In this document: positions 118 to 4,385 of the stretch, piece after piece
How the letters are laid out: each line of letters opens with the position of its first letter
Numbering within the stretch: the first letter of the stretch is position 1
From: Deltaproteobacteria bacterium
GTDB taxonomy: Bacteria; Lernaellota; Lernaellaia; Lernaellales; Lernaellaceae
DNA length: 34,809 nt
Reading direction: 5' to 3'
Assembly: GCA_003170555.1 (NCBI GenBank)
Contig: PMZC01000089.1
Location: 2,984-37,792 of the forward strand
Notes under the pieces: generated by a model
Seen by the model: only the letters and a program-made list of their open reading frames with translations
Database searches by the model: none
Told to the model about the DNA's origin: nothing
Translations under genes and position numbers: made by a program

Positions 118-119
<2 letters not shown>

Positions 120-425
120 TCGTCGACCTGAGCAACGCGGTTGTCGTCCTGAGCGAAGCGAAGGATCTATGAAACGTCTAGTAACAAATTCTTCGTTGTG
201 CTCAGAACAACAATGGGGGTTTAGAATGGCGATGGGAGACCGGCGTCGACCTTAGTTGTCGTCCTGAGCGAAGCGAAGGATCTATGAAATGAACGGATAT
301 AGATTCTTCGCAACGCTCAGAATGACAACGGGGGCTTTGAATCACATTCGCGTTGTCGTCCTGAGCGAAGCGAAGGATCTATGGGATGCCCGTACAAAGA
401 TTCTTCGCTATGCTCAGAATGACAA
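118..425. repeat. Cluster of paired inverted repeats (palindromic intergenic repeat family A)
   Basis: This gene-free stretch is built from a repeated unit. The forward half contains CCTGAGCGAAGCGAAGGATC and occurs at 141-174, 256-289 and 353-383. Each forward half is followed within about 15-20 bases by a reverse half containing AGATTCTTCG..GCTCAGAA, at 188-214, 301-329 and 398-425. A degenerate forward half begins right at the lepA stop (118-141). Paired halves can fold into a stem-loop. Forward and reverse halves differ consistently at the same two positions (CC versus TC, GG versus GA on one strand), so the element has a fixed polarity. It resembles the dispersed palindromes rich in CTGAGCGAAGCGAAG seen in many bacterial genomes. 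Apart from the repeats I see nothing else here. Confidence 0.85.
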
Positions 426-442
426 AAAAGGTTGGTGCACAA

Positions 443-763
443 ATGGCGAGAACCAGAACCTTCTACGTATACATCATGACCAATCATTCCGGCACGCTTT
501 ACACTGGAATCACGAACAATCTTGTGCGCCGCGTGGCTGAGCACAAGGAGGGCCGCGGGTCGGAATTCACCAGCAGGTACAAGATTACGCGACTCGTATA
601 CTTCGAGGAGACAAATGATGTTACCGCCGCGATTGAACGCGAGAAGCAAATCAAAGGTTGGTTGCGCGCGCGGAAGATCGCGCTGATCGAGTCGGTCAAT
701 CCGCAATGGCGCGACTTGAGTGAGGACTCGGAAACGATGCTTCAAGCCGATCCGGTTTTCTGA
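443..763 (+). CDS. Small single-domain GIY-YIG nuclease-superfamily protein
   Basis: The product is 106 residues. The N-terminal strands read FYVYIMTN and GTLYTGITNNLVRRVAEHK, a GIY-YIG core with YVY and YTG in place of the two name motifs, followed by the catalytic-type Arg (in RRVAEH) and a downstream Glu (in IEREKQIKGW). This matches the UPF0213/YhbQ-like single-domain group, which lacks a DNA-binding partner domain; cellular function in that group is poorly known. The frame is open further upstream to 386, but those codons are the read-through of a repeat half, so I chose the ATG at 443, preceded by an A-rich AAAAAAGG. The gene sits between copies of one palindromic repeat family on both sides. 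Activity is inferred from family only. Confidence 0.85.
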   Translation: MARTRTFYVYIMTNHSGTLYTGITNNLVRRVAEHKEGRGSEFTSRYKITRLVYFEETNDVTAAIEREKQIKGWLRARKIALIESVNPQWRDLSEDSETMLQADPVF

Positions 764-788
764 TCTTCTTGTTAATAGTCATCTTTAT

Positions 789-975
789 TTGTCGTCCTGA
801 GCAACGTGAAGGATCTATTTCTGCTTTCATAGATTCTTCGCTTCGCTCAGAACGACAACCAGGGCGCTCAGAACGACAACCAGGGCGCTCAGAACGACAA
901 AAAGGGCGTGTAGAATGACAACCGACGCGTTTTACTTTGCGCCGCCAACCGTGTCATCCTGAATAACGTAACGTG
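789..975. repeat. Palindromic repeat family A, downstream copy plus 21-bp tandem array
   Basis: Downstream of the GIY-YIG gene the same repeat resumes. A forward half (slightly diverged, CCTGAGCAACGTGAAGGATC) lies at 791-818 and a reverse half at 830-859. The end of the reverse half has been amplified into a tandem array of period 21 (core GCTCAGAACGACAACCAGGG), with units at 845-865, 866-886 and 887-907 and a decayed partial unit to about 922. A diverged forward half (GTCATCCTGAATAACG) ends the block at about 951-973, just before the next gene. The array is too short and has no spacers, so it is not a CRISPR. No gene or RNA is visible in 764-998. Confidence 0.8.
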
Positions 976-1673: not shown

Positions 1674-1742
1674 CGCCGCGACTTCTCTCTTCGCCGCACC
1701 CGTTGTAGTATTCGTTCAGCGTAATGCTTGCGGAGGTGTGTG

Positions 1743-4385
1743 ATGCGGGCCACGGCGTTGTTGCTGATTCTTCTGGCGGCGTTTCTCGTTCTGGTCGGCT
1801 GCGCGTCAAGCGGCGGATCCGGAGCCAACGGCGACGACGATACGACGCCCGATGACGACACGGCCGTCGATGACGACACGACGCCGGACGATGACACCGT
1901 CGCCGACGACGACACCAACGATCAGGTCGAGGTGTTTCTCGACGGCGACACGGTCGTGCTGCGCAATCACGAACTCAGCGTGCGCTACGATCTCACGCCC
2001 GGCCGCTTCCATATTCTCGACGCCGACGGCAAAAAGATCGTGCGCAACGCCGAGGCGCTGGTGCTGTCGCATGAGCTGATCCCCGCGCACAAATGGCACG
2101 GCAGTGCGCTGCCGCTGATCGATTGGACGCAAGCCGACGCGAGCAACGCCCTGGGCGCGGGCAAGTCGATCACCGTGCGGCGCGGCGGAACGGCCGATGC
2201 GCCCAACATCGCGCAGACGTTCACGCTGCTGGCGGGCGAAAGCTGCCTGCTGGCCGCGGCGAAGGTCGACAATGCGACGCGCGGCTCGCTGAAGATCGGC
2301 GCGATCTATCCGCTGTACGCCAATCCGCCGGACGGCGCGCTGCTCTTCGGCCGCAGCGCCGACCTGCGCACGCTGACCAACGGCACGCTCAACTACGCCG
2401 ACTTCGTCGAGCCGCTGAATCCGGGCTTCATCCCCTCCGACTCGAACTGGAGCACGCTGATCTTCAACCAGCGGACCGGCCGCAGCCTCGCGCTCGGGTT
2501 TCTGACTTACGAACTGGCGCAGCCGGTTGTTTACAACGGGCCCGATCGCGGCTCGGACGCCAGCCAATCGCTGCAGGCCGATTGCCAGTATGACCCGGCG
2601 CAGACGCTCACCGCCGGCGGCAGCCTGACGTCGGAGCAGATGATTCTCGACTTCGAGCAGGCCACGCCGTTCGACGCGCTGGAGTTGTACGCCGACCGTT
2701 TGAAGACGTGGCTGAACATCAGCCTCTGGGTCGAGCGGCATCCGGAGATCGGCGTGCCGGCGGGCTGGAACTCGTGGTCGGGCAGCGACAGCTCCGGCGG
2801 TTACGGGCACGGCATCAACGAGCAGATCATTACCGACAACATGGATTTCGCCGACCGCGAACTGCGCCGCTGGGGCTTCAACTATTTCCAGATCGACGAC
2901 GGCTGGGAGGTGCGGAGCGGCGACTGGCAGGTCGATACGACCAAGTTCCCCGACCACGGCGCGGAGAACGGCATCGCCTGGCTGATGGACCGCGCGAAAA
3001 GCCTCGGCTTCCACACCGGCCTGTGGTGCGGCGCCTTCTCGGCGGACGGCAACGCGCAAACGGTGCAGGATCATCCCGACTGGTTCGGCTACCAAATCCT
3101 CCATCAACTGACCGGCGCCTCGGGGCGCTACCTCGACCTTTCGAATCCCGACGCGCTCGCCTATCTGACCGACCTGATCAACACGCTGAAGGACTGGGGC
3201 ATTCAGTGGCTCAAGCTCGACTTCGCCTACGACGACATGCTCAGCGAAGGCTGGCACGACCCCACGCTGACCCGCGGCGAGTTCTACCGCCGGGGCATCC
3301 AGACCATCCGCGATGCGCTGGGGCCGGATGCGTTTTTCCTCAACGTCGCGGTCGCGGGTTTCAACTACGGCATGATCGATTCGCTGCGGCTGACGCTGGA
3401 CACGATGCCGGTGTGGGAAGGCACGGCGACCGATCCGTATTCGCTGATCGCCATGTTCGACAACCAGGGCCTCAAGCCGATGTACCGCGACGCCGCGCGC
3501 CGCTATTACCTGAACGGGCGCGTCTGGATCAATCACCCCGACCTGATCTTCTTCCGCGCGCATTCCGACCCGAAGTATCCGCCGCTCACGCTGAACGAAA
3601 CGCAGACCTTCGCCACGGCGGTCGTGCTGCAAGGCGGGCTGGTGAAGCTCGGCGACCGGCTGGTCGATCTGTCGGCGGACGCGCTGAACACGATCCGCGC
3701 CATGCTGCCGGTCTGGGGTCACGCCGGTCGGCCGCTCGACTTGTTCCGCCGCACGTTCCCCGAAGTGTGGGCGCTGCACATGGATGACTTCGACGAGCCT
3801 TACGCTGTGATCGGCCTGCTCAACTGGGGCATCAATCAAGACCTGACGACGCCGGGGTACGACTTTCTGCCCGACGCCGCGCGCGACATCAGCGCGACAT
3901 TCGCCGAGGCCGGGCTCGATGAAGGCCAGACCTATCTCGCGTTCGAATTTTGGACGCAGCAGTTTCTCGGCGAGGTGACCGGCGAGCTGTCGCTCAACGT
4001 GCCCGCGCGCACGCCGCGCGTCGTCGCCCTGCGGCCGAAACTCGACCGGCCGCAACTGCTGGGAACCAACCGGCACCTGCTCGGCGGCGTCGGCGTGATT
4101 CGCTCGCTCAAGTGGGACGCCGCCGGCAAGACGCTGACCGGCGTGCAGGAGGGCGCGGTCGGCACCACGTTCGCGCCGTTCACGCACCAAATCACGCTCT
4201 ACGCGCCGGACGGCTTCACCGCCTCGACCGCCGACGTGACCGCGCCGTCGGGCTACCAGATCGCGAACAAGACGCTGACGACCAACGGCAAGGTGGTCAC
4301 GCTGCGTTTCGATGTCGTCCGCACCGGCGCGCCGCAGACCGCCGATCAGCACCCCGACGTGACGTGGGTGGTGAATTTCGAGTGA
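1743..4385 (+). CDS. Surface lipoprotein, GH36-type alpha-galactosidase / clan D glycoside hydrolase
   Basis: The protein has 880 residues. The ATG at 1743 follows GGAGG with 6-base spacing, which decides the start over an in-frame TTG at 1728. A signal peptide ends in the lipobox LVGC (Cys20), then an Asp/Thr-rich linker (about residues 31-58) spaces the enzyme from the membrane. An N-terminal beta-sandwich (about 60-330) precedes a (beta/alpha)8 barrel starting at GWNSW. The nucleophile Asp lies in WLKLDF (Asp493) and the proton donor fits Asp553 in SLRLTLDT; QIDDGW and WCGAFSADG are barrel strands seen in GH36/GH27 relatives. A C-terminal beta domain follows. Such enzymes retain configuration and cleave terminal alpha-galactosides; raffinose-synthase-like or alpha-N-acetylgalactosaminidase specificity cannot be excluded. 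No transporter is adjacent. Confidence 0.85.
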   Translation: MRATALLLILLAAFLVLVGCASSGGSGANGDDDTTPDDDTAVDDDTTPDDDTVADDDTNDQVEVFLDGDTVVLRNHELSVRYDLTPGRFHILDADGKKIVRNAEALVLSHELIPAHKWHGSALPLIDWTQADASNALGAGKSITVRRGGTADAPNIAQTFTLLAGESCLLAAAKVDNATRGSLKIGAIYPLYANPPDGALLFGRSADLRTLTNGTLNYADFVEPLNPGFIPSDSNWSTLIFNQRTGRSLALGFLTYELAQPVVYNGPDRGSDASQSLQADCQYDPAQTLTAGGSLTSEQMILDFEQATPFDALELYADRLKTWLNISLWVERHPEIGVPAGWNSWSGSDSSGGYGHGINEQIITDNMDFADRELRRWGFNYFQIDDGWEVRSGDWQVDTTKFPDHGAENGIAWLMDRAKSLGFHTGLWCGAFSADGNAQTVQDHPDWFGYQILHQLTGASGRYLDLSNPDALAYLTDLINTLKDWGIQWLKLDFAYDDMLSEGWHDPTLTRGEFYRRGIQTIRDALGPDAFFLNVAVAGFNYGMIDSLRLTLDTMPVWEGTATDPYSLIAMFDNQGLKPMYRDAARRYYLNGRVWINHPDLIFFRAHSDPKYPPLTLNETQTFATAVVLQGGLVKLGDRLVDLSADALNTIRAMLPVWGHAGRPLDLFRRTFPEVWALHMDDFDEPYAVIGLLNWGINQDLTTPGYDFLPDAARDISATFAEAGLDEGQTYLAFEFWTQQFLGEVTGELSLNVPARTPRVVALRPKLDRPQLLGTNRHLLGGVGVIRSLKWDAAGKTLTGVQEGAVGTTFAPFTHQITLYAPDGFTASTADVTAPSGYQIANKTLTTNGKVVTLRFDVVRTGAPQTADQHPDVTWVVNFE

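Follow-up and report, generated by a model that had tools for sequence, protein, structure and literature searches.

A GIY-YIG nuclease gene bracketed by TGTC-tagged hairpins is a candidate mobilising gene of CGTC-tagged REPs

The locus described here is probably a copy of a very small mobile element, a reading to which we assign a probability of roughly two in three. In this element of about 400 bp a GIY-YIG nuclease gene stands between a TGTC-tagged hairpin and an inverted hairpin, with extra hairpin dimers around it; the nuclease would cut its own tagged hairpins and host synthesis would copy them. The repeats themselves are not new but belong to the CGTC-tagged REP superfamily, which includes the Neisseria dRS3-type and Rickettsia RPE repeats and whose members, according to Di Nocera et al. 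2013, 'apparently lack a dedicated transposase' (PMC3733652). The nuclease is commonly bracketed by hairpin copies and seems to travel with them, and this makes it a strong candidate for the so far missing enzyme behind the spread of CGTC/TGTC-tagged REPs. A literature search, whose scope did not extend to subscription journals and preprints, retrieved no paper linking GIY-YIG proteins with REPs, RAYTs or dRS3.

Results

Layout of the locus

The window, i.e. the whole stretch of 34,809 nucleotides that was analysed, carries the following features around the nuclease gene.

122..141, + strand: truncated copy (tag plus arm) on the outer side of palindrome 1, direct-repeat family D4
142..214, + strand: palindrome 1, TGTC-tagged hairpin 142-168 (forward) and inverted hairpin at about 187-212 (reverse), partly decayed, fold z -1.6
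257..329, + strand: palindrome 2, hairpins 257-283 (forward) and 301-327 (reverse), fold z -6.0
354..426, + strand: palindrome 3, 18 bp 5' of the GIY-YIG gene, hairpins 354-380 (forward) and 398-424 (reverse), fold z -6.2
386..442, + strand: in-frame 5' extension of the gene translating the right half of palindrome 3 (MPVQRFFAMLRMTKKVGAQ), ORF 386-763
443..763, + strand: single-domain GIY-YIG nuclease gene, 106 aa, core VYI..YTG, R30, H34, E67, N86, PF01541 with E 1.4e-16
790..857, + strand: palindrome 4, 26 bp 3' of the GIY-YIG stop codon, hairpins 790-816 (forward) and 831-857 (reverse), fold z -5.8
844..923, - strand: truncated copies in tandem, each made of the tag and one arm, with a period of 21 bp, at the outer side of palindrome 4, direct-repeat family D3

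The initial annotation had placed three palindromes of uniform polarity upstream of the gene and one downstream, and this layout was borne out. The repeat sequence CCTGAGCGAAGCGAAGGATC, with up to 3 mismatches allowed, has 5 matches in the window compared with 0.01 expected in shuffles, and single-stranded folding against shuffled sequences gave z values of about -6 for three of the four palindromes and -1.6 for the outermost one (142-214). The genome to which the window belongs (4.66 Mb, 84% complete) contains only about 11 further sites with this repeat, so that four dimers within 330 bp of the gene are not a chance cluster. The annotation was also right that the GIY-YIG frame extends upstream across a repeat half, from an ATG at 386 through '...FFAMLRMTKK...'. 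On the left, a gene that ends at 119 and has only its 3' end in the window resembles by eye the translation factor LepA; on the right, beyond palindrome 4 and the truncated pieces, a methyltransferase gene starts at 999. Farther along the window, a large ORF (1728-4385) encodes a secreted or lipoprotein-like product in which a DDDT-rich linker is repeated after the N-terminal signal region (DDDTTPDDDTAVDDDTTPDDDT).

Anatomy of the hairpins

The contrast between the palindrome halves that had been noted, CC/GG in one and TT/AA in the other, was confirmed and can be refined: since the halves differ in this way, each pairs with itself and forms its own hairpin (TCCT..AGGA and TTCT..AGAA). The window palindromes are four head-to-head dimers of a forward and a reverse hairpin, with TGTC tags at 142, 257, 354 and 790 plus mirrored copies, and dimers occur elsewhere in the same genome too. 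Co-variation of the arms within a half was examined in tagged copies from many genomes, picked by tag and loop alone with no stem required. All 5 outer stem positions were paired in 29 of these 42 copies, compared with a mean of 11 and a maximum of 17 when partners were shuffled.

The generic unit reads YGTC-AYNNN-(GARCGNAGYGA or other loop)-N'N'N'RT-C[CT]. Its stem start, AYNNN..N'N'N'RT, is present in nearly all units, and in the forward halves of the window G replaces the first A (a G.T pair). CG-loop types, which are dRS3-like, match a stem of 8-9 bp, a loop of 4-5 nt and a tail that is mostly CCA; the GA-loop type of the window, in which the outer stem has 5 bp, the inner part 11 nt and the tail is CT, would represent a further family of the CGTC-tagged REP superfamily. 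Truncated tag-plus-arm pieces were counted 74 times outside and 32 times inside intact units (around 390 units), and their outer reiteration with a period of 20-26 bp, seen in the window at 844-923 and 122-141, recurs at three other loci (L083, L074 and L036). Frequent abortion of copying into the hairpin would produce such an excess on the outside.

Association with the nuclease gene

In a first look at 60 genomes, the three nearest relatives of the nuclease (62-66% identity), all from outside the class of the window's organism, were flanked by the window repeat. More distant relatives had inverted pairs of different sequences beside them, which have nothing but the TGTCATT start and the hairpin plan in common with that repeat. 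A scan of GTDB species genomes then yielded 80 relatives from at least 26 phyla, taken together with flanks of at most 10 kb. The generic unit is present in at least 66 of these 80 loci. In the first 100 bp next to the gene the units reach a density of 7.69/kb; at 400-800 bp it is down to 0.4/kb, and farther away it is 0.04-0.19/kb (0.08-0.19/kb, or about 0.1/kb, beyond 1.6 kb). Sequence-reversed controls contained no units within 800 bp of the nuclease genes. Units lie within 150 bp on some side of 63/80 nuclease genes but of only 56/674 other ORFs at these loci, and on both sides of 42/80 versus 3/674 (odds ratio about 247), with P values that are optimistic because the unit pattern was defined after these loci had been seen. 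Among loci fetched after the pattern had been fixed, to which this caveat does not apply, the association was replicated in 12 of 17, and in all four records from a plasmid collection. The nearest units mostly face outward in the fashion of terminal inverted repeats (36 forward and 17 reverse on the left, 41 reverse and 18 forward on the right). Fourteen of the 80 relatives have no unit within 400 bp of the gene. Two genome samples, in addition, showed units beside 19 of 23 members of the nuclease group and beside one of 18 other GIY-YIG genes.

Chance or a general bias towards intergenic regions is ruled out as the source of this association by the control ORFs and the distance profile. The lack of enrichment over other genes, named beforehand as an outcome that would speak against a link, was not seen. 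An artefact of draft bins is likewise ruled out, as the same arrangement is found in isolate records of Neisseria, Sinorhizobium, Planktothrix and Spirosoma, in a complete Acidobacteriaceae genome (L128) and in a one-contig genome (G066). RAYT was rejected as partner of the repeats: near the three Y1_Tnp genes of the window's own genome there is one stray unit-like match and no cluster. Overall, the recurrent REP/RAYT-like association of GIY-YIG genes with repeats that the initial annotation had proposed is strongly supported, by both-side bracketing as well as by the unbracketed UPF0213-like genes, the tracking of hairpin types, the mobile units and the empty sites described below.

Two isolate loci deserve mention on their own account. 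In Neisseria gonorrhoeae (L186, NZ_CP119142.1, 1881719-1881982), a nuclease of the group is encoded amid arrayed repeats of the dRS3 type (GTCATTCCCGCGCAGGCGGGAATCC), in a region for which the plasmid table has no annotation; the ATG immediately 5' of the domain is in another frame, so that this copy is possibly broken. In Sinorhizobium meliloti (L188, CP090106.1), two gene copies stand in tandem with GTCATCCTCGGGCTTGACCCGAGGATCC units between them.

Hairpin type follows the enzyme

On the protein tree the broad hairpin class changes 14 times, compared with 28.1 times in shuffles (minimum 23), and none of 200 shuffles was as low; the loop type changes 4 times compared with 8.6. Protein and hairpin distances of cross-phylum pairs are correlated (Mantel r 0.27, 0/1000 permutations). 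With an alignment of 94 columns and most forks weak, this tracking holds for the tree overall and not for single branches. The dRS3-like CG-loop type lies within one well-supported group (support 96), which comprises Pseudomonadota, Bacteroidota, Nitrospirota and several candidate phyla.

A second GIY-YIG subgroup, recognised by the C-terminus GNF..L..LS (L153-L156), is flanked by TGTC hairpins with the loop GAGCYTGTCGA and a G after the stem, and appears to have a TGTC hairpin family of its own. Its initial status as a pure negative was an artefact of the tail pattern TC[CT], and a relaxed pattern detected tagged hairpins with another loop and tail. Therefore, only the UPF0213-like GIY-YIG genes (L157-L165) serve as negatives, and these have no tagged hairpins alongside. 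Some C-termini of the second subgroup, such as HPSTSSG, are translated hairpin sequence. The second single-domain gene of the window's own genome (L002, G000:C130:3006-3221) looks like a member of this subgroup and adjoins sequence that is, by eye, related but degenerate.

The nuclease group

The hallmarks of GIY-YIG enzymes are all present, namely the two Tyr motifs, the Arg/His helix, the catalytic Glu and the C-terminal Asn, and positions Y10, Y20, G22, R30, H34, E67 and N86 are conserved in 98-100% of 81 members. Copies of the gene within one genome are under strong purifying selection (dN/dS 0.08 and 0.11). The presence of the nuclease is patchy, with several copies per genome, and phylum labels are scattered across its tree. 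The best phage matches are 35-40% identical and mostly partial. The suggestion that many GIY-YIG entries of this type have repeat-derived N-termini was borne out only in part: an open frame that extends 5' across a complete unit is present in 14/80 relatives. In 16/80 the stop codon lies inside a repeat unit.

Mobility of the units

Where gene copies occupy different sites of one genome, they share only the REP-gene-REP unit, with the left edge at the tag. Homology starts at the GTC of the tag in one pair (L238/L239) and at TGTC in another (L242/L243), and it spans about 400 bp in a third (L236/L237). The one-contig genome G066 carries three identical gene copies in tandem with a 562-bp period. 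Empty sites were found as well. At the first, between conserved neighbouring genes, a unit is present in G066 and G068, whereas in G067 the genes are separated by 34 bp that hold no unit; at the second, neither G099 nor G087 carries anything, a dimer stands alone in G011, and G089 and G091 have dimers plus the gene. The flanks at these empty sites are too diverged for a clear target-site duplication to be established. One unit is found at different sites with unrelated flanks, and related genomes have sites that lack it, as expected of a transposable element.

Repeats with and without the gene

That repeat number goes with presence of the gene was confirmed in part. Within one order, genomes with the gene have a median of 3 repeat copies compared with 0 in those without it (P=0.0055, uncorrected for kinship), but two gene-free genomes are rich in repeats. 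G004, which belongs to the window's class and is 99% complete, has 155 near-identical hairpins, many of them identical over 20 bp (loci L206-L235); its sole GIY-YIG gene is of the UvrC type, and no single-domain GIY-YIG gene is present. G005 presents a similar picture, with 54 hairpins and without the gene. These genomes speak against a strict dependence of the repeats on the gene. No other gene recurs as neighbour of the G004 hairpins among 30 loci. Either G004 has lost the gene recently, or its repeats have spread or been held constant without it.

Discussion

A mobile element made of one nuclease gene and two hairpins could work as follows. The tagged hairpins would fold when the DNA is single-stranded, on the lagging strand or during repair, and the nuclease would recognise its own hairpin type and cut by hydrolysis at or near the tag. 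The chemistry of GIY-YIG nucleases is hydrolysis, with no joining of strands, so that strand transfer must be supplied by host functions; a segment that has been released or displaced may then be copied by host replication and repair and so reach new sites. Units with the gene would be the autonomous copies and gene-free hairpin dimers the non-autonomous ones, and copying aborted at a hairpin might leave the truncated tag-plus-arm pieces that lie outside many units. The sequence comparisons show the association and its specificity, the joint change of hairpin type and enzyme, the purifying selection, the unit edges at the tag, the empty sites and the duplications in tandem and at dispersed positions; recognition of the hairpins, cutting at the tag and the copying route are inferred.

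In its working the system resembles a REPtron, without being a RAYT system. As in the GTAG REPs with their RAYTs (REPtrons, REPINs), short tagged hairpins in inverted pairs bracket a gene whose product is a small dedicated DNA enzyme, and many copies are solitary. However, the enzyme here is a GIY-YIG hydrolase (PF01541) whereas RAYT is a Y1 HUH transposase, the tag is YGTC and not GTAG, and the present repeats can abound where the gene is absent. With the CGTC-tagged REPs they share an unpaired CGTC/TGTC tag, a stem starting with AT, a short tail, head-to-head dimers, a mostly intergenic position and occurrence in many species. Unlike the published repeats, for which the lack of a dedicated transposase is a negative finding and not a defining trait, the present units bracket a GIY-YIG gene, and their stem and loop types are more varied and extend over at least 26 phyla compared with 5. 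UPF0213/COG2827 proteins (PDB 1ZG2, 1YWL) also consist of a single GIY-YIG domain and provide the nearest solved structures, but the NPxWxDL C-terminus is missing from UPF0213-like members, and tagged hairpins do not bracket their genes.

GIY-YIG homing endonucleases (I-TevI type, and the free-standing Seg/F-Tev) combine selfish mobility with a separate DNA-binding domain of the NUMOD type. The catalytic fold and the selfish mobility are common to both; the protein described here has only about 95-106 aa and no separate DNA-binding domain, and the element ends in repeat hairpins and is not tied to one allele. The main rival explanation nevertheless starts from such enzymes: the repeats would be spread by something else, and a free-standing GIY-YIG homing endonuclease would cut existing palindromes and copy itself in via homology of the arms. 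Besides the fact that homing endonucleases are known among GIY-YIG enzymes, this would suit the site with a solitary dimer in G011 and dimer plus gene in G089 and G091, as well as the abundance of repeats without the gene in G004 and G005. We still consider it unlikely, as the empty sites of G067, G099 and G087 are without any palindrome and the shift of hairpin type with the enzyme over many phyla is not predicted, unless the homing parasite also spreads the repeats.

Less probable still is that the host keeps the nuclease as a UvrC/Cho-like enzyme for the repair of palindromes or junctions, around which repeats gather by self-targeting or local instability. The strong purifying selection agrees with such a role, and COG2827 genes of Caulobacter have been proposed as repair endonucleases (PMC1839093). 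Caulobacter crescentus NA1000 has three small genes of this kind (CC3518, CC1343 and CC0707; PMC1839093) and is among the carriers of CGTC-tagged REPs (PMC3733652). A host role is at odds, however, with a nuclease that is patchily distributed, scattered across phyla and present in several copies per genome, and with the empty sites and the dispersed duplicates of REP-gene-REP units. Finally, passive hitch-hiking of a gene that sits in intergenic repeat islands and is moved by inter-repeat recombination would agree with the intergenic position of the repeats and the tandem duplication of gene-repeat blocks, but it is highly improbable given the bracketing of 42/80 nuclease genes versus 3/674 other ORFs, the co-variation of cognate hairpins and enzymes across phyla and the unbracketed UPF0213-like genes.

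A mobile element driven by its own nuclease thus remains the preferred reading of the locus. A wider proposal, for which we see the chances as evenly balanced, is that GIY-YIG nucleases are the general mobilising enzymes of bacterial TGTC-tagged palindromes. This would be a class of mobile DNA that does not depend on HUH transposases and whose complete elements consist of a single domain of about 95 aa and two hairpins. There would be at least two subgroups of the enzyme, with a different hairpin type for each, and the dRS3 repeats of Neisseria and similar repeats would be non-autonomous descendants.

The CGTC-tagged REPs are widespread in bacteria and long known, and according to Di Nocera et al. 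2013 they have no transposase of their own; a candidate enzyme can now be named, and the build of what appears to be a complete element, one gene in about 400 bp, can be described. The element would represent a second answer to the REP/RAYT theme, based on a different chemistry, and would explain why peptides derived from repeats, such as FFAMLRMT, occur at the ends of some GIY-YIG open frames. It would also assign a function to a large uncharacterised group of GIY-YIG proteins previously guessed to be repair enzymes. In conclusion, the origin and spread of CGTC-tagged REPs become testable in laboratory strains.
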